Origin: a virus
Direction: 5' to 3' (one strand)
DNA: 50,877 nucleotides
Virus record (IMG/VR): IMGVR_UViG_3300021437_000026
Coordinates: 1 to 50,877 of that record
Made by a program: the position numbers and the translations under genes. Below, piece by piece: positions 3,803 through 47,415 of the stretch. The notes below the pieces were generated by a model. That model was not told where the DNA came from. It made no database searches and saw only the letters and a program-made list of their open reading frames with translations. Within the stretch, counting starts at the first letter, position 1. Every line of letters starts with the position of its first letter.

Positions 3803-4639
3803 ATGTTCGACAACTTGACAATTTACCGGGTAGCGTCTAACTGGGAACCGAAGCTGGATGCCCTGGAGCCCCACCAGTTCCACCCCTGTCTGCCGTCGCA
3901 AGAACGATCGGTCGGCCTCGTGCCCGTGGTGGGATTGGCGCAACCGCTGGTTGAGCGCATTGCTGGCGCGCTGGTGCTCCGAGTGATGGTTGAAACACGC
4001 TCGGTGCCCGCCCAAGTGCTGGCGCGGCGCGCGGAGGAGCTTGGCGCGCTCTCGGAGCGAGAGACCGGCCGGGCTTCCGGCCGGGGCCTGCGCGCTGAGC
4101 ACAAAGAGCAAGCCCGCCTGGAGCTGCTCCCGCGCGCCTTCCCCCGCCGTACCTCGGTCTACTGTTGGATCGACACGGAGGCCCGCCTTCTGGTCTTGGG
4201 CACGGCCAGCGGCAAGCTGGCGGAGCTGGTCGCCACCACGCTGGTGCGCGCGCTCGACGGGCTTGCGCTCGCACCACTGCGGACCAAGGTGTCGCCTACG
4301 CAGCGCTTGGTGGAGTGGGTTGCCCAAGGTGAGGCGGCCCATCCCTTCTACCTCGGCCAGGACGCGAGACTGGCTCGGCATGACCAGGCGGTTAAGTTCA
4401 AGGCATTCCCTCTGGAGGACGAGCATATTCAAGAGCTGACCACCGCAGGCTTTAAGCTGACTGAGTTGGGCCTGGAAGTCCCTGGCAGGGGGTCATTCAC
4501 CCTCACGGGCTCTGGGGTGGTCAAAGGCATCAAGCTGGTTGAGAAGGCGGAGGAGACGCTCTCCGGCGTCTATTTGGGCGTCACCGAGACCCGCACGCTC
4601 ATCCTGCAGCTTGTGGAAGCCCTCGGGGGTGAAGCGTAA
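3803..4639 (+). CDS. rdgC: RdgC-like recombination-associated protein
   Basis: The 278-residue product matches the RdgC family in length and layout: N-terminal NLTIYRV, then FHPCLPSQERSVGLVP (family pattern: F.PC.P.Q..S.GWVPP), a central LELLPRAFPRRTSVYCWID, and a C-terminal half ending in TLILQLVEALGG. Family knowledge: RdgC forms a ring-shaped dimer around DNA and restrains RecA and recombination. In a phage it may modulate host RecA or protect ends. It starts a short rightward operon with the next gene (TAATG junction). Confidence 0.85.
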   Translation: MFDNLTIYRVASNWEPKLDALEPHQFHPCLPSQERSVGLVPVVGLAQPLVERIAGALVLRVMVETRSVPAQVLARRAEELGALSERETGRASGRGLRAEHKEQARLELLPRAFPRRTSVYCWIDTEARLLVLGTASGKLAELVATTLVRALDGLALAPLRTKVSPTQRLVEWVAQGEAAHPFYLGQDARLARHDQAVKFKAFPLEDEHIQELTTAGFKLTELGLEVPGRGSFTLTGSGVVKGIKLVEKAEETLSGVYLGVTETRTLILQLVEALGGEA

Positions 4640-4887
4640 TGGGGCGCCCGCGTAGAGAGGACAGCCGCGCCTCGATACTGCGCCGGCTGGCCGTTGGAGA
4701 AACCCACGTCTCGGAACTTGAGCTTGGGTCTCTGCGGGATGCCCCCGGGGTCAAGCGCGACATGCTCAAGGTGTGGTGGGGGGCAAGCAAGGGCATCAAA
4801 GAGATGCGGTTCGTCCGGTCAACAGAGGTCGTCTTCTCTAAAGAGGAGGGGCTTTCTGTCCGAATCACAGTAAAAAGACTTGCGTGA
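4639..4887 (+). CDS. Small basic protein of unknown function
   Basis: This is an 82-residue protein, start overlapping the rdgC stop (TAATG), so translationally coupled. It begins GRPRREDSRASILRRLAVGE, followed by a short helix-rich part (VSELELGSLRDAPGVKRDM) that could be a helix-turn-helix, and ends in beta-prone sequence. If it binds DNA, the inverted repeat in the next promoter would be a natural target; this is speculation. Confidence 0.6.
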   Translation: MGRPRREDSRASILRRLAVGETHVSELELGSLRDAPGVKRDMLKVWWGASKGIKEMRFVRSTEVVFSKEEGLSVRITVKRLA

Positions 4888-4908
4888 CTCGCCGAGAGTC
4901 GCTATAGT
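4880..4908 (+). promoter_or_regulatory. Promoter of the H-NS gene with an operator-like inverted repeat
   Basis: TTGCGT (4880-4885) and TATAGT (4903-4908) are 17 bp apart, a good sigma70 promoter. The spacer contains the perfect inverted repeat GACTC-gccga-GAGTC (4886-4900). A protein bound there would sit between -35 and -10, so it is a likely repressor site. The promoter overlaps the end of the preceding gene. Confidence 0.65.
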
Positions 4909-4939
4909 CCAGCCCATCAACCACCCGGAGTAACTCCCC

Positions 4940-5227
4940 ATGTCGAATCTGAAGACCCTGCTGGATCAAAAGCAAGCCCTGGAAAACGCCATCAAGGAAG
5001 AGCGCGAGCGCACTGCTGCCGCGCGTGAGTCCGCCATTGCTGAAGCCAAGAAGCTGATTGATGACTACGGACTCATGCGCGCTGACCTGTTCGCTCCCGT
5101 TACCGTGGCCGCCCGTTACCGTGGCCCGGGCGGTGAAGAGTGGACTGGTCGCGGCATGGCCCCGAACTGGCTCAAGGATTTGGAAGCCAAGGGCTTTGCC
5201 CGTGACACTTTCCTGATCCCAGCCTGA
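4940..5227 (+). CDS. H-NS family nucleoid protein (phage-encoded)
   Basis: This 95-residue protein starts at ATG 4940, nine bases after GGAG. Residues 1-42 form a charged helix suited to oligomerisation (LLDQKQALENAIKEERERT). Residues 60-78 contain the H-NS DNA-binding core, with YRGPGGEEW then TGRGMAPNW, matching the family pattern T.GRG..P.W. The tail (AKGFARDTFLIPA) is typical of betaproteobacterial H-NS paralogues. Known role of the family: binding AT-rich DNA and silencing genes. A phage copy could replace or interfere with host H-NS. It has its own promoter, and the transcript probably runs into the CRISPR-repeat-like element and terminator downstream. Confidence 0.85.
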   Translation: MSNLKTLLDQKQALENAIKEERERTAAARESAIAEAKKLIDDYGLMRADLFAPVTVAARYRGPGGEEWTGRGMAPNWLKDLEAKGFARDTFLIPA

Positions 5228-5240
5228 CCCCGACGGCGGC

Positions 5241-5277
5241 ATCGCCCACCTACTACCTGGCGGGCGTGGATTGAAAC
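5241..5277 (+). ncRNA. Solitary type I-C CRISPR-repeat-like unit (candidate RNA anti-CRISPR)
   Basis: Thirteen bases after the H-NS stop lies a 37-nt element built like a type I-C repeat. A 5-bp stem, CGCCC (5243-5247) with GGGCG (5262-5266), is extended past one A/C mismatch by CC/GG around an 8-nt loop. Directly after the stem comes TGGATTGAAAC (5267-5277), the 11-nt sequence that Cas5d leaves as the crRNA 5' handle in I-C systems. There is no second repeat and no cas gene nearby, and a strong terminator follows 27 nt later. Solitary repeat units of this kind in phages are known to act as RNA anti-CRISPRs (Racr). The match is direct; the function is inferred. Confidence 0.75.
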
Positions 5278-5304
5278 CTGAGCACACCGTCTCCGCAAGT
5301 AAGA

Positions 5305-5332
5305 AACCCGCCAACTGGCGGGTTTTGTTATT
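5305..5332 (+). terminator. Rho-independent terminator after H-NS and the repeat unit
   Basis: A perfect 8-bp stem AACCCGCC/GGCGGGTT with loop AACT is followed by TTTTGTTATT. It ends the transcript that carries the H-NS gene and the CRISPR-repeat-like element. Confidence 0.85.
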
Positions 5333-7986: not shown

Positions 7987-9573
7987 TCACTTAGACACTC
8001 TAACCTTTAGCGTACCGCTTGCTAAGTCTACAGCAGAGCCAGTGCCGTTCTGAAACCACACTGATACAGTATTAGCTGCGGAAACGTAGGCGGTCAGCGC
8101 TATTCCTTGTAAGTCTAGGGAGAAGGAAACCAAGACGAAATCGCCCAAAGCAGCCCCAGTAACCGAGATGGTAGTGGTTACTCCGCTTCCTGTTGGTATG
8201 GAAGCTGGATCGTACACTGCAGAGGCTGACAGGTTTCGTCCATTTCCAAGAACCTGGCGGCAAGCTGTTCCGCCGGAGTTGACGCGGAATGTAAGGACTT
8301 CCCCCGGAACTAGTAGTCGATTTACGCCGTCAGCTAGCAGTAGGTTAGCGCTATTTACAAGTGTAGTATTGGAGTTACCAGCCTCAACCGTAAAGCATTG
8401 TCCGGCTAGTATGCCGGAAAAAGCAGTTACTGACGTGACTGCAGTGTTCCCTAAAACTAGATGCTCAGTCCCAGCTACACTTGGGGTAGCAGAATTGCTT
8501 GTGACGGAAGCCGAGCTGGTCAACTTCGCCATGCCTACAGTTTGATAAAACTGACCTGTCTTATCAAACCGCATAGCTTGTGTTGCGCCGGGTGTTGCTA
8601 TGTAGTAGTCGTCCGTCCCAGAGTTGACATAGGTTTCCCAGCAGATCGCGTTAGCGTTATCCAGGAACTGCAGTTTCTTTGTATGCCAAACAAGCTGATC
8701 AGATGCCCATTGCATGCGCACACTCGGGAATCCAAACTTTGGCAGGTCATCTCGGTCCCCGATGACAATGTTCGCCCTGAACTGCGATGACACTGCGGAA
8801 AAATTCCGCACAAAAGTCCAGTCAACGCTGCCGTCATTTACTGTTCCTGACGTATGTGACGGCTTCGTAGTTCCGGCAAGGCCTGTTGAGGCTGCCTGAT
8901 AGAGATTGAAGGACGCTAAAGCGTAATCGCCGGAGGTTACGTTGAGGCCAGTGCGCCAGGCTCCCTTTAGCGGGGTGCGCCAAACGGTATCACTTGTATC
9001 GAAATAGTAGAGTTTGAACGGGGTAGCCGGACCGGCTCCTGCATCTGAAAATCCAAAGTGCCAAGCTGGGTAGATACCAAAGTTGTCACCGACGCCTTTC
9101 ACGGAGTCTCGCGCAATACCGTGAGAACCTAGAGTGGTAGCTGAGTCAGCTGGATCGTAATTGGTACAAAATATATTGCGTATCCGATAGTTGACCCCAT
9201 CGTCTTCGTATGGGTCAAACATGAGGTCCAGCTTTGAGGCTGTGCCAGCTACATACCCGCTGGGCTCAATGTGAACTCTGGTTGCAAAAGACTGTCTGGT
9301 GTCTCTTATCAGCAAATGGCCGCCACCAGCCTGGAGGGATTTCCCTACACCAACCTTTGACATCACTATCTTCTGACTAGCACAGTCATAGACAATTACG
9401 TCATTCGGTATTGTTACCGCAGACAGGTCCAGCTGGCTATTCTTAGGATTAAATATGGCGCCGCTGTTAGAGATCGCGGCACAGGCTATAGTGAATGCAG
9501 AGGCTGCTGAGGACGGAGACGAACTAGCATTTCCGTAGTCTGACAGCCAGGGGAAGTTACCTATTAATTTCAT
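7987..9573 (-). CDS. Putative tail fibre / receptor-binding protein
   Basis: This 528-residue, Ser/Thr/Ala/Gly-rich beta protein starts MKLIGNFPWLSDYGNAS. The middle has many aromatic beta strands (FGIYPAWHFGFSD, FKLYYFDTSDTVWRTP), and the end has GDFVLVSFSLDLQGIALTA and WFQNGTGSAVDLASGTLKV, a pattern seen at the C-termini of fibre and capsule-targeting proteins. No catalytic motif was recognised. Its place between the hub genes and the beta-helix gene supports a host-range role. The DNA is visibly more AT-rich than the hub genes upstream. Confidence 0.6.
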   Translation of the reverse strand: MKLIGNFPWLSDYGNASSSPSSAASAFTIACAAISNSGAIFNPKNSQLDLSAVTIPNDVIVYDCASQKIVMSKVGVGKSLQAGGGHLLIRDTRQSFATRVHIEPSGYVAGTASKLDLMFDPYEDDGVNYRIRNIFCTNYDPADSATTLGSHGIARDSVKGVGDNFGIYPAWHFGFSDAGAGPATPFKLYYFDTSDTVWRTPLKGAWRTGLNVTSGDYALASFNLYQAASTGLAGTTKPSHTSGTVNDGSVDWTFVRNFSAVSSQFRANIVIGDRDDLPKFGFPSVRMQWASDQLVWHTKKLQFLDNANAICWETYVNSGTDDYYIATPGATQAMRFDKTGQFYQTVGMAKLTSSASVTSNSATPSVAGTEHLVLGNTAVTSVTAFSGILAGQCFTVEAGNSNTTLVNSANLLLADGVNRLLVPGEVLTFRVNSGGTACRQVLGNGRNLSASAVYDPASIPTGSGVTTTISVTGAALGDFVLVSFSLDLQGIALTAYVSAANTVSVWFQNGTGSAVDLASGTLKVRVSK

Positions 9574-39867: not shown

Positions 39868-40023
39868 GTGATCCGTCTCACTGATCCGCAGATCGATGCT
39901 CTGGACCGCCTACCCCCTGGGTGGTCTGCGGCTACGATGCTCTCCCTCCTGTTCCCCGGCCTCTCCGGTCGGTTCATCCTCCTCGGGGTCGGAAGCGACC
40001 TCTACCTCAAGCAGCTACCATGA
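39868..40023 (+). CDS. Short leader gene before the ribonucleotide reductase
   Basis: A GTG-started 51-residue frame (IRLTDPQIDALDRLPPGWS, then LSLLFPGLSGRFILLGVG) ends in an ATGA overlap with the reductase start at 40020. The coupling and the sensible sequence argue for a real gene. No family is recognised and the ribosome site is weak. Confidence 0.5.
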   Translation: MIRLTDPQIDALDRLPPGWSAATMLSLLFPGLSGRFILLGVGSDLYLKQLP

Positions 40024-42884
40024 CCTTCAAGACCCCCCAACAAGGCTACATCGCCAAGTCCAAGTACGCCCGCTACCTCGACACCGAGCTGCGCCGAGAG
40101 TCATGGCCTGAGACAGTGGCCCGCTACTTCGCTTTCGCCAGAGAGCATGTTGCAGAAAAGTTCCCGCACGCCTTGGGTGCTTGGCGGGAGGTGGAAGCGA
40201 GGCTTGAGACCTCCGTCCTCCGCCTTGAGGCCATGCCGTCAATGCGGCTGCTCATGACCGCAGGGGAGGCCATCAAACGCAACCACCTGGCGGCTTACAA
40301 CTGCCACGCCTCGGCCATAAACGCAGTGCATAAGTTCAGTGACATGCTGCTCATTCTCATGCATGGGACCGGTAGCGGGTTCTCGTGCGAGCGTCAGGAG
40401 ATTGCTAAGCTCCCGAGCATACCAGAGCAGATCCGCAAAACCGGGGATGTCCTCCAGGTAGAGGACAGTAAAGAGGGGTGGGCGGATGCGTATTTCCACT
40501 TGCTCACTTTCCTCTATCGTGGCACGGAGCCCAGTATTGACTACTCAAAAATCCGGCCGCGCGGTGCCCGCCTGAAGACCTTTGGTGGTCGGGCGAGCGG
40601 TCCAGAGCCGCTCAAGCGCCTGTTCGAGTTCACCGTTTCCGTTTTCCGCAACGCGCAGGGACGCAAACTCACGTCGATTGAGGTCCACGACGTTTGCTGC
40701 ATGATTGCGGATATCGTGGTGGTCGGGGGAGTCCGCCGCAGTGCCCTGATCAGCCTCAGTAATTTGTCTGACCGTCGCATGCGTGACGCCAAGATTGGCG
40801 CATGGTGGGCTGAGCACCCCCACCGCGAGTTAGCAAATAACTCTGCAGTTTACACTGAAAAGCCGGACGCCGAAACTTTTATGGAGGAATGGCTGTCTTT
40901 AGTTAAAAGTAAGTCGGGGGAGCGGGGAATTTTTAACCGGGAGGCTGCAACAAAGCAGGCGAGTCGGTGGGGGCGTCGCAGCGAAAACTATGACTACTTA
41001 GTCAACCCCTGCTGCGTTACTGGGGATACCTTTGTGCTTACCATAGATGGGCATCTTCCTATCAAAGGACTGGTCGGCAAACCAACGCTAGTGTGGAATG
41101 GCGAGCAGTGGTCAGAGGTTACGCCCTTCTCTGTGGGGGAGCACCCTGTCTTTCGGGTTAGCTTAAGCGATGGGTCGTACATCGATTGCACCGCAAACCA
41201 CAAGTTCGTACTTGGAGAGGGGTTCCGAGGGAAGACATTCCGGCGCATGACTTCTGAACTGTCTCCGGGAGACCGGCTGGCGAAATTCGACATGCCTATT
41301 GTCTTACTTGGAGAAGAGTACCCGGTAGATGCGTACAGCCAAGGGTTTTACGGTGGTGACGGGAATAAGGACTCTTCTAGGTCTTGGGTGTACCTCCCGA
41401 AACTCATGTGTGCCCCCCGACTCATCGGTGAAGTGCAAGAGGCAAACCTCACCTACGGGCGTTGCTGCTGGGTGCACGGTCCTATGCTGCCGAAATCTTT
41501 CGTACCTGTGAATGGCTCGCTCAGCTACAGGCTTAATTGGCTAGCTGGTATTCTGGACAGCGACGGAACTGTTACCCGGGACATCAATGGCAACGGTTTT
41601 CAGATAACATCGATTGACAAAGACTTTTTGCTTAACATACGTCTCATGCTGACTTCAATGGGCGTCTCAAGCAAGTTGCAGCTTGCCCGTTTGGAAGGTA
41701 GCTTTTTGATGCCGGATGGGGCGGGAGGAGAAAAGGAGTACGTCTGCCAGGATACGTGGAGGCTGTTGATCGGGAACATGTCCGTGTACAAGCTCGGAAT
41801 GCTGGGGCTCCACACCTCCCGGCTCCAGTGGCACCGCAGCGCCCCCCAGCGAGACGCAGCCCGGTTCGTGCAAGTGCAGTCAGTGATACCACTCGGGGTG
41901 ACGGAGGCGTTCTGCTTCGAGGAGCCCCTCAACCATACCGGGACATTTAATGGGACTGTGACCGGACAGAGTGAGATACTTCTCCGGGACCACCAGCTGT
42001 GCAACCTCACGGAAGCCGTGGCCCGACCGGAAGATACTCCTGAAAGCCTCCGAGCAAAAGTCGAGGCGTGCACGATACTCGGAGTGTTCCAGTCAACACT
42101 CACTGACTTCAAGAACGTCGATGGGTTGCTGAAGCAAAACTGCGAAGAAGAGCGCCTGTTAGGGGTTTCTATAACGGGAGTCATGGATAGCCCGCTGCTC
42201 AGCACCGTGACGCCGGAGACAGAGAGTCTCCTGAGCGATCTGCGCGCTTTCTGCCGCAGTGTAGCTACCGAGTGGGCCGGTGTTTTCGGCATTCCGGTTT
42301 CTGCGGCCATAACCTGCAACAAACCGAGTGGGACGGTAGCCCAGCTGACTGACGCCGGTACGGGGGGCCTGCACCCGCGCTACGCCCCCTTCTACATCCG
42401 AACCTACCGGCAGGATAACAAAGACCCGCTGACGCAATTTCTGAAGGACCAGGGCGTCTACTGGGAGCCGTGCTTGAGTAAGCCAGATACCCAGACGATC
42501 TTTTCTTTCGCCGTGAAGAGCCCCGAGGGCTCAGTGCTTCGCAACGACCGCTCGGCTATCGCACAACTTGAGCACTGGCTCATGTTCCAACGGCACTGGT
42601 GTGAGCATAAACCATCGATCACCGTATATGTGCGGGACCACGAGTGGCCAGAAGTGGGCGCTTGGGTGTACGGCCATTTTGACGAGGTGTGCGGGGTTAG
42701 CTTCTTGCCCTATGACGGCGGAAGCTACCGGCAGGCGCCGTTCCAAGAGGTAACCGAGGCCGAGTACTTGTCGTTTATCGAGAAACATCCCGGTGTGATT
42801 AACTGGGACCAGTTTATCGAGCAGGATGACCTTACTGAAGGCGCCCAAGAGCTGGCCTGTACGGGTGGAACCTGCCTGATTTAA
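40020..42884 (+). CDS. nrdJ: Class II (adenosylcobalamin-dependent) ribonucleotide reductase interrupted by an intein
   Basis: The precursor is 954 residues from the ATG at 40020 (ATGA overlap); removal of a 319-residue intein leaves 635. The extein shows AAYNCHASAIN with redox Cys95, LILMHGTGSGFSCE, the thiyl-radical Cys331 at the end of NPC, DHQLCNL with Cys661 (precursor numbering), CNKPSGTVAQLTDAGTGGLH, and a C-terminal CTGGTC pair (947, 952) for thioredoxin-type reduction. This is the monomeric RTPR type. It makes deoxyribonucleotides for phage DNA and needs the host's vitamin B12 cofactor. Earlier possible starts upstream lack family sequence. Confidence 0.93.
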   Translation: MTFKTPQQGYIAKSKYARYLDTELRRESWPETVARYFAFAREHVAEKFPHALGAWREVEARLETSVLRLEAMPSMRLLMTAGEAIKRNHLAAYNCHASAINAVHKFSDMLLILMHGTGSGFSCERQEIAKLPSIPEQIRKTGDVLQVEDSKEGWADAYFHLLTFLYRGTEPSIDYSKIRPRGARLKTFGGRASGPEPLKRLFEFTVSVFRNAQGRKLTSIEVHDVCCMIADIVVVGGVRRSALISLSNLSDRRMRDAKIGAWWAEHPHRELANNSAVYTEKPDAETFMEEWLSLVKSKSGERGIFNREAATKQASRWGRRSENYDYLVNPCCVTGDTFVLTIDGHLPIKGLVGKPTLVWNGEQWSEVTPFSVGEHPVFRVSLSDGSYIDCTANHKFVLGEGFRGKTFRRMTSELSPGDRLAKFDMPIVLLGEEYPVDAYSQGFYGGDGNKDSSRSWVYLPKLMCAPRLIGEVQEANLTYGRCCWVHGPMLPKSFVPVNGSLSYRLNWLAGILDSDGTVTRDINGNGFQITSIDKDFLLNIRLMLTSMGVSSKLQLARLEGSFLMPDGAGGEKEYVCQDTWRLLIGNMSVYKLGMLGLHTSRLQWHRSAPQRDAARFVQVQSVIPLGVTEAFCFEEPLNHTGTFNGTVTGQSEILLRDHQLCNLTEAVARPEDTPESLRAKVEACTILGVFQSTLTDFKNVDGLLKQNCEEERLLGVSITGVMDSPLLSTVTPETESLLSDLRAFCRSVATEWAGVFGIPVSAAITCNKPSGTVAQLTDAGTGGLHPRYAPFYIRTYRQDNKDPLTQFLKDQGVYWEPCLSKPDTQTIFSFAVKSPEGSVLRNDRSAIAQLEHWLMFQRHWCEHKPSITVYVRDHEWPEVGAWVYGHFDEVCGVSFLPYDGGSYRQAPFQEVTEAEYLSFIEKHPGVINWDQFIEQDDLTEGAQELACTGGTCLI
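41013..41969 (+). mobile_element. Intein with LAGLIDADG endonuclease in the reductase
   Basis: The intein runs from Cys (CVTGDTFVLT, block A) to VTGQ before Ser+1, residues 332-650 of the precursor. Block B is CTANHKF, the two endonuclease dodecapeptides are YSQGFYGGDGN and LAGILDSDGTV, and block F is FCFEEPLNHTGTFNG. It ends in Gly-Gln rather than His-Asn. It splits the protein immediately after the radical-bearing Cys331, so the enzyme is inactive until splicing. Both endonuclease motifs keep an acidic residue, so homing may still work. Confidence 0.9.
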
Positions 42885-42897
42885 TACGATAACCAAC

Positions 42898-42924
42898 AGC
42901 GGGCTCCGGCCCGCTTCCTTATTT
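42898..42924 (+). terminator. Terminator or attenuator after the reductase
   Basis: A perfect 7-bp stem AGCGGGC/GCCCGCT with loop TCCG is followed by TCCTTATTT. It ends directly at the ATG of the helicase gene, so it may reduce expression of the downstream genes relative to the reductase. Confidence 0.65.
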
Positions 42925-44556
42925 ATGGAACTACGTGACTACCAATCGTCCTTATACTCTAGGATGGCGTCCGACCTGGCTGGCGGCGCACAAAACGTCC
43001 TTGGGGTTTTGCCGACCGGCGGGGGTAAGTCTGCGATCATCGCCCACGCCACCGAGCAATACGACGGCTATATGTGCCTGATGGCCCACCGCGATGTGCT
43101 GGTCCTGCAGCTCAGTCTGGCCCTGGCTCGGTTCGGGGTTAGGCATGGAGTTATCGCGTCACAGGAAACCCTGCGCGAAATTACTAGGCTCCACATGGAG
43201 GTTACCGGATCTTGCTTTTTTGATGCCCGCTCTACTAAGTGCGTGGCATCAGTGGACACCCTGCGCAATCTACCGCCGGACCACCATTTTGCGAAGCGTG
43301 TGTCCCGCTGGATTGTAGACGAAGCCCAGCACTTGACTCGGGAGGGCGGAACCGCCGGAAAGCCGGGTAAGTGGATGCAGTGCCTCAACCTTTTCCGGCC
43401 CGATGCGACTGGTATGGGTTTCACCGCCGCCCCGACGCGAGCTGACGGTAAAGGCCTGGGGAGACAAGCTGATGGGGTAATGGACTCAATGGTGCTTGGC
43501 CCTACTCCAAGAGAACTGATGGCGCTAGGGCACCTGGCTGACTATGACTACTACATGCCCCCGACGAGCGACCTTGACCTGTCCGGTGTCGGCACTACCG
43601 CAACAGGAGACTTATCTCCAAAGGCTCTCAGTAGCGCGGTTCACAAGTCAAAACAGCTGGTGGGTAATATTGTTTCACACTACCTAACCCACTGCTATGG
43701 GATGAACGGCGTGGTGTTTGCGACCGACGTGCTCGCAGCGGAAGAGACCTGCGCTGAGTTTGAGGCCAATGGTATCCCGGCGCGGGTTATCACCGGGGCC
43801 ACTCCCTCTATCACTCGCGCCCGAGTTCTAAAACAACTTGAGCAGAAGGAAATCCTGCAGGTCGTCAGCGTGGACGTGCTCTCGGAAGGCACTGACGTCC
43901 CCGGGATCGAGTATGTCGGCATGGCCCGGCCGACCGAGAGCCTGTCGCTCTACCTGCAGCAGGTGGGGCGAGGCCTGCGCCCGAAGCCCGGCGGCAAGCG
44001 CGCGCAGCTGTTCGACCATGTTGGAAATCTGGCGCGGCACGGACCGCCCGACCGCTACCGGACCTGGAGCCTCGACAGCCGCGAGAAGTCCAGCAAGAAG
44101 GGCGCCGACCCCGACGTGATCCCCTTCCGCTCGTGCCCGCAGTGCACCCGGCCTTATGAGCGCTCCCTGGTTGCGTGCCCGTTCTGTGGGTTCGAGCCCC
44201 AGCCGGCGGCGCGCGGCGGGCCGGAGCTGGTGGACGGCGACCTATGTCTGGTGGACCCGGCTGTCCTGGAGCGGCTGCGCGGAGAGGCCAACAAGCAGTT
44301 GGTCGTGCCTTACGGCGCACCTCCAGAAGTTGTCGGGGCCGTCAAAAAGCGGTATGCTCAGCGCTGTGAAGCTCGGGATTCCCTGTTGCTGGTCATGGAC
44401 GTGTGGGGTGGACTCAAGACCTCACAAGGAAAGAGCCACCGAGAGCAACAGAGAGAGTTCTACCTGCGCTTCGGGATAGACGTTTTGACTGCCCAAACCC
44501 TGCCTCCTAAGGAGGCTAACGCACTCAAGGAGAAGATAGTATGCTCGTTAAGCTGA
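42925..44556 (+). CDS. SF2 DNA helicase (RadD-like) with zinc ribbon
   Basis: The product is 543 residues. Motifs: a Q-like start LRDYQ, Walker A PTGGGKS at 30-36, DEAQH at 132-136, motif III FTAAPTR at 166-172, and motif VI QQVGRGLR at 345-352, followed by the FDHVGN box. A four-Cys site (404, 407, 418, 421) lies in the C-terminal part. This is the arrangement of RadD-type and related phage helicases that remodel DNA for replication or repair. It overlaps the dUTPase start by 16 bp. Confidence 0.9.
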   Translation: MELRDYQSSLYSRMASDLAGGAQNVLGVLPTGGGKSAIIAHATEQYDGYMCLMAHRDVLVLQLSLALARFGVRHGVIASQETLREITRLHMEVTGSCFFDARSTKCVASVDTLRNLPPDHHFAKRVSRWIVDEAQHLTREGGTAGKPGKWMQCLNLFRPDATGMGFTAAPTRADGKGLGRQADGVMDSMVLGPTPRELMALGHLADYDYYMPPTSDLDLSGVGTTATGDLSPKALSSAVHKSKQLVGNIVSHYLTHCYGMNGVVFATDVLAAEETCAEFEANGIPARVITGATPSITRARVLKQLEQKEILQVVSVDVLSEGTDVPGIEYVGMARPTESLSLYLQQVGRGLRPKPGGKRAQLFDHVGNLARHGPPDRYRTWSLDSREKSSKKGADPDVIPFRSCPQCTRPYERSLVACPFCGFEPQPAARGGPELVDGDLCLVDPAVLERLRGEANKQLVVPYGAPPEVVGAVKKRYAQRCEARDSLLLVMDVWGGLKTSQGKSHREQQREFYLRFGIDVLTAQTLPPKEANALKEKIVCSLS

Positions 44557-45071
44557 AAAAACTGCACCCGTCGGCCAAGACTCCGCGCTACGCCAAGCCC
44601 GGAGATGCCGCCTTTGACATCTTCGCCACTGAGGCTCACTTCAGCGGCAAGACTTGCGAATTGGCTACGGGCTGGTCCTGTGAAGTCCCGCGTGGGTATG
44701 GCCTTTTTGTCTTCTCTCGCTCTGGCCACGGCTTCAAGCATGGGATGCGGCTGGCCAATTGTGTTGGCGTCATCGATAGCGGCTATCGAGGCGAGGTGAA
44801 AGTCAAACTCACACTGGATGGTGACTCGTGGGGTGGCTTGGATACTGACGTTGCGGTCGCCCAAGGAGTGGTGTTGCCTATCGAGCAAGCCGAGTTTCTG
44901 GAAGTTGAGGAATTGTCGGAAACCGAACGCGGCACCGGTGGTTTTGGGAGTACGAGCGTGGTGAAAAACTGCAGCACTTGCAAAAATGGAGATTGTGAAT
45001 ACTACGCGGAACCCTGCGCGTCCTGTGACGCGGGGAGGAGTGGCCTCTACCAAAACTGGGAGCAGAAATGA
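44541..45071 (+). CDS. dut: dUTPase with Cys-rich C-terminal extension
   Basis: The product is 176 residues, start behind AAGGAG. The five trimeric dUTPase motifs are GDAAFDIFA (21-29), SRSGHGFK (59-66), GVIDSGYRGEV (76-86), VAQGVVLPI (106-114) and RGTGGFGST (130-138). It lowers dUTP and provides dUMP to thymidylate synthase. Unusually, a 38-residue tail with Cys144, 147, 152, 159 and 162 follows motif V; in other dUTPases motif V closes the active site of a neighbouring subunit. The tail resembles the end of the next gene product. Confidence 0.93.
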   Translation: MLVKLKKLHPSAKTPRYAKPGDAAFDIFATEAHFSGKTCELATGWSCEVPRGYGLFVFSRSGHGFKHGMRLANCVGVIDSGYRGEVKVKLTLDGDSWGGLDTDVAVAQGVVLPIEQAEFLEVEELSETERGTGGFGSTSVVKNCSTCKNGDCEYYAEPCASCDAGRSGLYQNWEQK

Positions 45072-45280
45072 ACTACGATAACCGCTGTGTGCGTTGTGGC
45101 AATACCGGCCACCGGTCGAGCCACTGCAAGCAACCTTTCTTCCCGACGCAACCGGCTGAACCCCAGCTGTGCTCGACTTGCGCTCACTCGAAACTGCCGA
45201 CTACTGAAGAGCCGTGCTGCTCATGTGATCGGCAATGGCATGGGTCTCGGCTGGTATCTACGCGCTGGGTCAAGGCATGA
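45068..45280 (+). CDS. Zinc-knuckle protein
   Basis: This 70-residue protein contains a CCHC knuckle, C-x2-C-x4-H-x4-C at 7-20 (CVRCGNTGHRSSHC), and a second Cys cluster CSTC...EPCCSCD at 35-53 that matches the tail of the dUTPase (CSTC...EPCASCD). Zinc knuckles bind single-stranded nucleic acid. It has ATGA overlaps with both neighbours, so it is translated with them. Confidence 0.75.
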   Translation: MNYDNRCVRCGNTGHRSSHCKQPFFPTQPAEPQLCSTCAHSKLPTTEEPCCSCDRQWHGSRLVSTRWVKA

Positions 45281-47415
45281 ACTACTACAACGAGTTCGAC
45301 CCAGGCGCAGCGGCTTGGCTACGTCAGCTCGTGTCGGAAGGTTTGATTCCGGCGGGTATCGTTGACGAAAGAAGCATTGAAGATGTCCATCCCTCCGACC
45401 TGTCTGGATTTACCCAGTGTCATTTCTTCGCCGGTATTGGTGGGTGGAGCCGAGCCCTCCAACTTGCAGGGTGGCCAGAGTCAAAGCCGGTCTGGACTGG
45501 ATCGTGTCCTTGCTTCCCGGCGGGGACACTCATCCTCACCCAGCGCGGTTCGGTCCCCATTGAATCCGTTACTGTTGGGGACACCGTGCTGACCCACAAA
45601 GCCCGTTGGAGGCCAGTAACTGCAGTCGGTTCCGAGGAGTCCGACCTAGCTCTCGTGCGCGGGCAAGGGCACTGGGGTTTGGTGACGACGCCGAGTCATC
45701 CTTTTCTGACCGGCCCGGAGGAGTGGACTAGGGCAGTAGACCTGCGGGGTAAAAGGTGGCGTACCGTTGCCAGAGTGCCGGAAGCGGACATTCCTCCTGT
45801 GGAAAACGGGCGGGGAGTGATGGCGGACCGGGGGGCGTGGCGGGCCACCGGCTGGAGAGATGGAAAAACCATATACCTAGGTAGGTACCCGAGCAAGCAA
45901 CTGGCTGTTGACCGCCGGAAAGTGGCCGTTGATGCCGGGGAGATTGATGTAAGAGGAGCTGACGCAGTGGACCCAAAAACGCTTGGCTTCGCGCGATTTC
46001 TAGGCTACTGGACTGGGGACGGCTGGGTTAGCAGAAACTCAGTCTTCCTGTGCGGTGCCAAAAACCACGGGCCGCTGCTTCGTGAGATTATGCTCGGAGC
46101 CGGGCTAACCTGCTCGGAATCAATAGAGCGCACTACCGCGCGAGCCCGTTGCGGGTCTTCCGTGTTATCTACGTGGCTCACGGAAAACTTCGGTAGCTCG
46201 TGCCGTGGTAAAAGGCTCCCGGCATGGCTTCATGGGGCTAGCCCTGCGTACCGAGAGGCGTTTCTGCTCGGGTATGCGGAGGCGGACGGTCACAGTGACC
46301 GCTCGGTAAAAGCGTGGACGACGGTATCTAGGGCGCTTGCGGTGGGTATCCGCATTCTCCTTAACCAAGCCGGAGTCTCCGCATCTATAACCTTCTCCTG
46401 GACCAGAGCTTCCGAAATAGAAGGAAGAGAGATCCCAGAAAGCGGGTTTTACCGAGTTACTGCGTACCAGAACGCCCGCTCTTTTTCATTCACTCAGGAG
46501 CATGGAGTTGGACTCATTCGGTCAGTCGAGCCAGCAGGTAAGGGAAGGGTCTACAACATGTCCGTGTTGGAGGACGAGAGCTACTGTGCCGACGGCATTG
46601 CAGTTCATAACTGCCAGCCTTTCAGCTCGGCAGGTAAAGGAGCTGGGTTTGATGACGAGCGGCACCTTTGGCCTGCCTTCCACCACCTCATCAGTCAGTG
46701 CCGGCCTGAAACAGTATTTGGAGAGCAGGTTGCGAGTTCTGACGGCCTGCAGTGGCTCGACCTTGTACGCGCTGACCTGGAAGGATCGGGCTGGGCCGTC
46801 GGGGCGGCCGATCTGTGCGCTGCGGGCGTCGGCGCGCCCCACGTCCGGCAGCGACTCTACTGGGTGGCCGACGCCCAACAGCACGTTCGTGGATGCGAAG
46901 CCGAACCCACCGATCACGTCGGGGCGCAAGCCGACCGATCCGCAGATCAGCACGGCGGACATCGCGGTGCACCTACGCGGCTGGCCGACCTGCACGGTGC
47001 AGGATGCACACCGGGGCGTGAAGGACGCGAGGCCCCGGGGCGCGGGCTGGCCGACGCCGACGGCAAAGCTTGGGGACGGGCGGAGAGGATCCCCATCCTC
47101 GGATGTAGCGCTGGCCAGACTGGAAGGGGGGCGCAGGAATCTGGACGACATGGCGGCGATCACCGGGCCGTGCCGCTTGACGGCTTCTGGCGAGATGCTG
47201 ACTGGCTCGGCTGCCGGGATGGCAAGTGGCGGCCAGCTGAACCCAGCACATTCCCGTTGGTTAATGGGTTACCCACCGGAGTGGTGCCGAGCCGCTATTC
47301 TGGCCTGGAGATCAACCCCCAGCGGTCGGCGGAAGCGCGAGTGATGCGACTTCGGGGGTATGGAAACGCGATCGTGCCACAGGTGGCTGCAACCTTTATC
47401 CGGGCCTTTTTATGA
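45277..47415 (+). CDS. DNA cytosine-5 methyltransferase interrupted by an intein
   Basis: The precursor is 712 residues from ATG 45277 (ATGA overlap); the spliced enzyme would be 345. Motif I FAGIGGWSRAL is at 51-61; motif IV PCQPFSSAGKG is created only by splicing, with catalytic Cys446 as the +1 residue. Motif VI appears as EQV in place of ENV; motif VIII is QRLYWVAD; WRDADWLGCRDGKWRPAEP and the final GYGNAIVPQVAATFI (motif X) are also present. It methylates phage DNA, likely against host restriction. No cognate restriction enzyme is nearby. Confidence 0.92.
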   Translation: MNYYNEFDPGAAAWLRQLVSEGLIPAGIVDERSIEDVHPSDLSGFTQCHFFAGIGGWSRALQLAGWPESKPVWTGSCPCFPAGTLILTQRGSVPIESVTVGDTVLTHKARWRPVTAVGSEESDLALVRGQGHWGLVTTPSHPFLTGPEEWTRAVDLRGKRWRTVARVPEADIPPVENGRGVMADRGAWRATGWRDGKTIYLGRYPSKQLAVDRRKVAVDAGEIDVRGADAVDPKTLGFARFLGYWTGDGWVSRNSVFLCGAKNHGPLLREIMLGAGLTCSESIERTTARARCGSSVLSTWLTENFGSSCRGKRLPAWLHGASPAYREAFLLGYAEADGHSDRSVKAWTTVSRALAVGIRILLNQAGVSASITFSWTRASEIEGREIPESGFYRVTAYQNARSFSFTQEHGVGLIRSVEPAGKGRVYNMSVLEDESYCADGIAVHNCQPFSSAGKGAGFDDERHLWPAFHHLISQCRPETVFGEQVASSDGLQWLDLVRADLEGSGWAVGAADLCAAGVGAPHVRQRLYWVADAQQHVRGCEAEPTDHVGAQADRSADQHGGHRGAPTRLADLHGAGCTPGREGREAPGRGLADADGKAWGRAERIPILGCSAGQTGRGAQESGRHGGDHRAVPLDGFWRDADWLGCRDGKWRPAEPSTFPLVNGLPTGVVPSRYSGLEINPQRSAEARVMRLRGYGNAIVPQVAATFIRAFL
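45511..46611 (+). mobile_element. Intein with LAGLIDADG endonuclease in the methyltransferase
   Basis: This 367-residue intein (precursor residues 79-445) starts with Cys (CFPAGTLILT), has block B TTPSHPFL, dodecapeptides FLGYWTGDGWV and LLGYAEADGHS, and ends GIAVHN before Cys+1, a standard splice end. Between block B and the first dodecapeptide is WRATGWRDGKTIYLGRYPSK, which resembles an AP2-like DNA-binding unit found in homing nucleases. The +1 Cys is the catalytic nucleophile, so splicing is needed to form the active site. Confidence 0.9.
46652..47344 (+). CDS. Out-of-frame ORF nested in the methyltransferase gene
   Basis: A 230-residue frame lies wholly inside the C-terminal extein, shifted +1 relative to it. 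The ATG at 46652 has AAAGGAG nine bases upstream. The product (MTSGTFGLPSTTSSVSAG...) contains LESRLRVLTACSGSTLYALT, GRPICALRASARPTS, two GWPTP boxes, and a C-terminal QLNPAHSRWLMGYPPEWC. From memory, these patterns recur in phage proteins annotated near cytosine methyltransferases, which argues against chance. The frame can be extended upstream to 46502 within the intein, with no ribosome site. Function unknown. Confidence 0.5.
   Translation: MTSGTFGLPSTTSSVSAGLKQYLESRLRVLTACSGSTLYALTWKDRAGPSGRPICALRASARPTSGSDSTGWPTPNSTFVDAKPNPPITSGRKPTDPQISTADIAVHLRGWPTCTVQDAHRGVKDARPRGAGWPTPTAKLGDGRRGSPSSDVALARLEGGRRNLDDMAAITGPCRLTASGEMLTGSAAGMASGGQLNPAHSRWLMGYPPEWCRAAILAWRSTPSGRRKRE

Follow-up and report, generated by a model that had tools for sequence, protein, structure and literature searches.

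Phage-borne decoys built on single CRISPR repeats are already known, and the unit described here is a good further example of them. RacrIF1 traps Cas6f and Cas7f (PMC10651486). RacrIC1, from a Bifidobacterium pseudocatenulatum prophage, is transcribed together with acrIC5, 11 nt downstream of that gene, and inhibits type I-C immunity (PMC10651486). The SRUFinder catalogue extends to 2,103 viral solitary repeat units (SRUs) and has 17,823 repeats (PMC10651486); a hit must reach 90% identity and coverage and score 41.1 bits or more against a known repeat, and a unit counts as solitary when no further or partial repeat lies within about 100 bp. In type I-C systems, Cas5c processes the repeat and clamps the handle with Cas7, thus nucleating a Cas7 filament (PMC7684278), and the minimal substrate of Cas5d is a 3-bp stem with a tetraloop (PMC7064716). 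A separate proposal concerns EBPR podovirus 1, for whose H-NS protein a role in silencing the CRISPR and restriction genes of the host has been suggested (Skennerton et al. 2011, PMC3097231).

In the window, by which we mean the whole stretch of 50,877 nt that was analysed, a lone type I-C-like repeat follows an H-NS gene. We consider it likely, from its sequence, fold and setting, that this unit is a solitary mimic of the 37-nt type I-C repeats of Burkholderiales and acts as a candidate Racr. Like RacrIC1, which is compared here by its description and not through an alignment of the two RNA sequences, it is a solitary type I-C mimic in a phage, placed 11 nt 3' of a protein gene and expected on the same transcript. 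In contrast to RacrIC1, its partner is H-NS rather than acrIC5, and the repeats mimicked are those of the 37-nt Burkholderiales class. With RacrIF1 and the SRUFinder units it shares a solitary, intergenic position without cas genes and a subtype that fits the likely host group. However, RacrIF1 is bound by Cas6f and keeps the RNA upstream of the cut, whereas a type I-C decoy would use Cas5c and keep the handle side. Three points are new at this locus: the unit mimics the 37-nt class; its hairpin has diverged so far that, against the 17 repeats compared, the unit falls short of the BLAST criterion published with the SRUFinder catalogue; and H-NS is close by.

The unit and its surroundings

A 37-nt unit had been placed at 5241-5277 by the first-pass annotation. 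The unit is real, but it is 39 nt long: the bacterial repeats that match it begin GCATCGCCC, which sets its first base at 5239. Its layout is GCATCGCCC-ACCTACTACCTGGC-GGGCGTGGATTGAAAC (table 1). The exact 11-nt handle described directly after the stem is indeed there. TGGATTGAAAC has one exact copy in the 50,877 bases (5267-5277), against 0.014 copies expected under a first-order Markov model of the window, and for CGCCC-N6..16-GGGCG-TGGATTGAAAC the first-order Markov expectation in the window is about 8e-7. Rfam CRISPR-DR9 is the sole window match at E<=0.05 (5239-5277, 33.3 bits, E 8.5e-4), with a score below the curated Rfam gathering score of 45. The 37-mer folds at -13.4 kcal/mol (z -2.7). 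Seven of the eight stem positions are paired, the exception being an A-C mispair in the inner stem, at a position where bacterial arrays show G-C, A-T or C-G. The same annotation had taken the pairing of the stem as a sign of selection; the pairing stands at these seven positions, but the argument is weaker than stated, since the outer 5 bp are those of the bacterial repeats and the inner stem carries the mispair.

As had been claimed, no other repeat or array accompanies the unit, and no cas gene was recognised among the 22 main window proteins. A second repeat, or a partial one, is absent nearby, the best other model match (11.3 bits) lying far away; CRISPR arrays and mini-arrays are defined by two or more repeats with spacers between them, and the window holds a single unit. 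The exact unit was also looked for in sequenced genomes and found in none.

The placement after an H-NS gene and before a strong terminator was likewise borne out. The unit is intergenic, between the H-NS stop (5227), from which it is separated by 11 nt, and the terminator (5303), and the terminator hairpin would occupy the place that the next repeat's hairpin has in a crRNA. The stretch between unit and terminator, 5278-5302, matched nothing by blastn-short in 3.0 Mb of loci that included cas operons. An antisense ORF (4865-5314) overlaps the unit and spans the H-NS gene, and was taken as spurious. Upstream, a promoter-like element ends 31 nt before the H-NS start and has a palindrome, GACTC-GCCGA-GAGTC (4886-4900), between its hexamers; we regard the element as weak because a consensus scan did not call it. 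Its position suggests that the unit is part of the H-NS 3' UTR.

Table 1. Features of the locus around the solitary repeat unit, in window coordinates
Feature	Position	Strand	Basis
RdgC gene, upstream neighbour	3803..4639	+	Pfam PF04381 E 3e-51
82-aa ORF between RdgC and H-NS	4639..4887	+	no Pfam, PHROGs or PADLOC match
Promoter-like TTGCGT-17-TATAGT upstream of H-NS	4880..4908	+	seen by eye, located by regex
H-NS-like protein gene, 95 aa	4940..5227	+	Pfam PF00816 (Histone_HNS) E 3.5e-10
Solitary type I-C-like repeat unit (39 nt), racr candidate	5239..5277	+	covariance model of 37-nt I-C repeats; Rfam CRISPR-DR9
Hairpin 5' arm CGCCCACC	5243..5250	+	fold and model alignment; outer 5 nt equal to bacterial arrays
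Loop TACTACCT, 8 nt (bacterial arrays: 6 nt)	5251..5258	+	fold, repeat alignment, model alignment
Hairpin 3' arm GGCGGGCG, one A-C mispair with 5' arm	5259..5266	+	model alignment
Type I-C crRNA 5' handle TGGATTGAAAC	5267..5277	+	exact, unique in window
Short stretch in spacer place, ~25 nt	5278..5302	+	blastn-short
Intrinsic terminator hairpin, 10 bp, with T run	about 5303..5326	+	fold

The 37-nt class of bacterial type I-C repeats

CRISPR arrays were surveyed in 351 genomes of one family and 399 of its order, centred on genome G305, which had been selected because it encodes a protein matching the H-NS of the window (45% identity). Since the centre was picked by an H-NS match, the surveyed group is presumably, rather than certainly, Burkholderiales. 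Among arrays ending in TGGATTGAAAC, two repeat lengths occur, 32 nt (period 65-68) and 37 nt (period 71-72), and members of the 37-nt class include GCATCGCCCAGCCTCAGTGCTGGGCGTGGATTGAAAC, GCATCGCCCCCCGGCAACGGGGGGCGTGGATTGAAAC and GCATCGCCCGGCCTCACGGTCGGGCGTGGATTGAAAC. Over the outer 25 bases (GCATCGCCC...GGGCGTGGATTGAAAC) the phage unit is identical to the arrays of G964, G1009 and G1134, and the hairpin register is that of these and other 37-nt arrays. The difference is confined to the inner hairpin, which has another sequence and is 2 nt longer (14 nt vs 12); unlike the arrays, the phage unit is present in a single copy, without spacers and without cas genes. By curated models, the 37-nt arrays whose flanking operons were read, including those of G1009 and G1134, adjoin Cas5c, Cas7c and Cas8c genes, with Cas1c and Cas4c beside them where seen, and so they are of type I-C. 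This cas gene content also rules out assigning the 37-nt repeats to another subtype (I-G, III). The first-pass annotation had looked to a match with the I-C repeat of the host genus as support, and on the sequence side the comparison supplies a match for the likely host group: the surveyed order, presumably Burkholderiales, has matching 37-nt systems with true I-C cas operons.

Two covariance models were built, R1 from 11 aligned bacterial 37-nt array repeats and R2 from six 32-nt repeats. In the R1 alignment all pair cells are standard (88/88, 100% paired), and at three inner pairs both partners vary; the inner hairpin of the bacterial repeats varies with compensatory changes, and its covariation exceeds that of all 500 shuffles. 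R1 scores the phage unit at 42.4 bits (E 2e-10) and everything else in the window at 11.3 bits or less, a result that is not circular because R1 was built from bacterial arrays alone, with the caveat that these arrays were gathered by patterns fixing the handle, or the handle and outer stem, which are also present in the window. R2 gives the unit 27.8 bits. When the window is ranked with 54 virus loci carrying I-C-like units, its unit comes third by R1 and among the last by R2. Judged by these scores and by its outer bases, the phage unit belongs to the 37-nt class, as do, by R1, several of the units in other viruses (L100, L084, L116 and L143).

BLAST tells less. The best hit of the unit against 17 repeats reaches 40.1 bits over 20 of 37 nt, so that against the repeats compared it misses the SRUFinder cut-offs narrowly in score and clearly in coverage, and none of the 17 has its inner hairpin. 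Units of this kind would tend to escape a plain BLAST search against known repeats, whereas a structure-aware model finds this one clearly.

Further repeats were noted in passing. On a chromosome contig of G1131, two degenerate 37-nt-class repeats lie 71 nt apart (L265, 6700-6809). A further I-C-type 37-nt repeat form, beginning GTCGCGCG and with its stem in another register, occurs at L190, L211 and L217; Cas5c, Cas7c and Cas8c genes adjoin the GTCGCGCG-type repeats of the L211 array (L223).

The phage, its likely host and solitary units in other viruses

The genes identified in the phage include terminase, portal, tape measure, tail proteins, DNA polymerase and primase-helicase, together with ribonucleotide reductase, thymidylate synthase and RdgC. 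By TerL, the nearest named phage is Burkholderia phage BcepNazgul (49%) and the nearest overall are uncultured virus contigs (57-60%). The best match of RdgC is in Acidovorax phage ACP17, and Curvibacter phage PCA1 ranks high as well; for H-NS the nearest proteins are encoded by Acidovorax and Polaromonas plasmids. Taken together, these relatives point to Burkholderiales as the likely host group. Among 303 spacers from I-C arrays, matches to the phage never went beyond 14-17 nt. A TerL scan of bacterial genomes for prophages returned distant relatives only (40% or less), the named ones all being gamma-proteobacteria, and CGTGGATTGAAAC was absent from the 18 genomes tested. The nearest TerL relatives (57-60%) have no unit in the sequence compared; in three of 58-60%, the sequence compared has no handle, no H-NS and no RdgC. 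Searching virus contigs by the window's H-NS or RdgC alone yielded no close relatives.

Some features of the window lie apart from the unit. The record starts with 6.3 perfect copies of a 10-nt repeat (1-63), perhaps an assembly-end artefact. An ORF on the minus strand (120-689) contains a 9-nt tandem repeat (198-338) encoding a CTxCTxC-rich stretch. On the plus strand, 39921-47415 covers the gene for ribonucleotide reductase, followed at some distance by an ORF similar to DNA methyltransferase and weakly to reductase.

An IMG/VR scan with an exact pattern and a free inner hairpin gave 70 stretches, from which 55 distinct solitary I-C-like units were left once arrays and duplicates had been removed; control scans with the handle reversed, or with an inner stretch of 17-30 nt, gave zero. 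The first virus match, L002, was discarded as a solitary unit, being an ordinary CRISPR array in which a spacer happens to begin with these bases. At least one further pair is formed by 43 of the 51 distinct inners, against a mean of 23 and a maximum of 34 in 1000 shuffles, and the units overlap long ORFs less (20/55) than the average of 78% for the same loci. Terminators follow 4 of the 55 units where 2 are expected, which rules out a terminator beside the unit as a general rule. Of 47 tested virus records that carry I-C-like units, none has an H-NS domain, and no repeat unit was seen in 40 phage H-NS loci (nothing above 16.1 bits); on these two counts H-NS is ruled out as a recurring partner. 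The succession of H-NS, unit and terminator is thus not general. Some virus contigs (L087/L112, L138, L085+L151) have a pair of unlike solitary I-C-like units, separated by several kb, as if a decoy had been duplicated or acquired twice.

The decoy reading and its rivals

Sequence, structure, the match to a repeat class, solitude and gene context support the idea that the lone repeat is probably an RNA decoy tying up host type I-C proteins. Cas5c would recognise the outer hairpin and the handle, and the unit retains the 3-bp-stem substrate and handle features read by Cas5c/Cas5d. From type I-C biology, a cut is predicted after 5266; it would leave a 64-nt 3' fragment with Cas5c still bound to its handle. 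This fragment would consist of the handle, about 25 nt and the terminator hairpin, that is, the layout of a crRNA without a known target. Handle-bound Cas5c might then nucleate Cas7 growth on it. Since the RNA is short, has no known target and ends in the terminator hairpin as a cap, both proteins would be trapped uselessly, locked in short complexes that do not target the phage. The mispaired inner stem, the loop longer by 2 bases and a promoter weak by consensus speak against the decoy, as do the lack of a hit among the 303 spacers that would link the phage to an I-C system, the absence of the unit from the nearest TerL relatives in the sequence compared and BLAST scores that all stay under 41.1 bits. 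If it is one, type I-C repeats of the 37-nt class join those for which RNA anti-CRISPR candidates exist, and the unit suggests that a decoy may keep just the outer stem and handle, the part read by Cas5c, with the inner hairpin drifting.

A neutral origin has to be weighed first among the alternatives. The unit might be a single repeat acquired from a host CRISPR array, or the residue of a lost mini-array, now functionless; its outer 25 nt still equal the bacterial repeats, its inner stem carries a mispair, and the nearest relatives have no unit, so that it is perhaps recent. Nevertheless, there is no trace of a second repeat nearby, and the inner hairpin is unlike that of any of the 17 repeats whereas the parts needed by Cas5c are preserved, a pattern unlike random decay. 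The unit also sits neatly between stop codon and terminator, and solitary units recur in many virus contigs. Altogether, we hold such a remnant to be unlikely.

The decoy might also form one cassette with its neighbour, H-NS silencing cas transcription and the 3' UTR RNA trapping the Cas5c and Cas7 already made. EBPR podovirus 1, which infects a beta-proteobacterium and encodes an H-NS-like protein, offers a parallel, but no repeat unit lies near its H-NS gene, and its protein has 37% identity to that of the window. An H-NS gene followed by a candidate CRISPR decoy is seen in one case only and is suggestive, and we think a joint cassette rather doubtful. If true, the link would join the 2011 proposal of a phage H-NS suppressor with RNA decoys in one transcript.

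A guide function is also conceivable, in which the unit and the following 25 nt would form a one-repeat crRNA, a short guide sending the host Cascade elsewhere (for instance to a promoter of the host or to a competing phage). Handle, spacer-like stretch and 3' hairpin, the layout that this needs, are all present in the predicted 3' product. However, the spacer-like stretch is short, about 25 nt vs about 33-36 in arrays, and matches nothing in the 3.0 Mb of loci, cas operons included, which makes this scenario very improbable. Just as little weight can be given to a Cas5c-responsive element, whereby cleavage in the 3' UTR would alter the stability of the H-NS message if the host has a type I-C system. 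The placement after H-NS and before the terminator would suit such a role, as would chromosomal solitary units beside genes in a genome with a 37-nt I-C system, but terminators follow only 4/55 viral units and the H-NS domain occurs in 0/47 virus records tested. Finally, phage intergenic hairpins are common and short exact matches arise by chance, yet an ordinary 3' UTR hairpin resembling a CRISPR repeat by coincidence is for practical purposes refuted by the model search (E 2e-10, from bacterial arrays alone), with about 8e-7 such patterns expected in the window and control scans of the virus collection at zero.

The chromosomal units belong to G704, which has a 37-nt I-C system. They are solitary, I-C-like and have short hairpins (L266, about 9089-9119; L320, about 1277-1307), and one of them runs right up to the ATG of an ORF judged by eye to be TrpS-like. 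Cas5c-responsive leaders and array remnants are both possible identities for these units.
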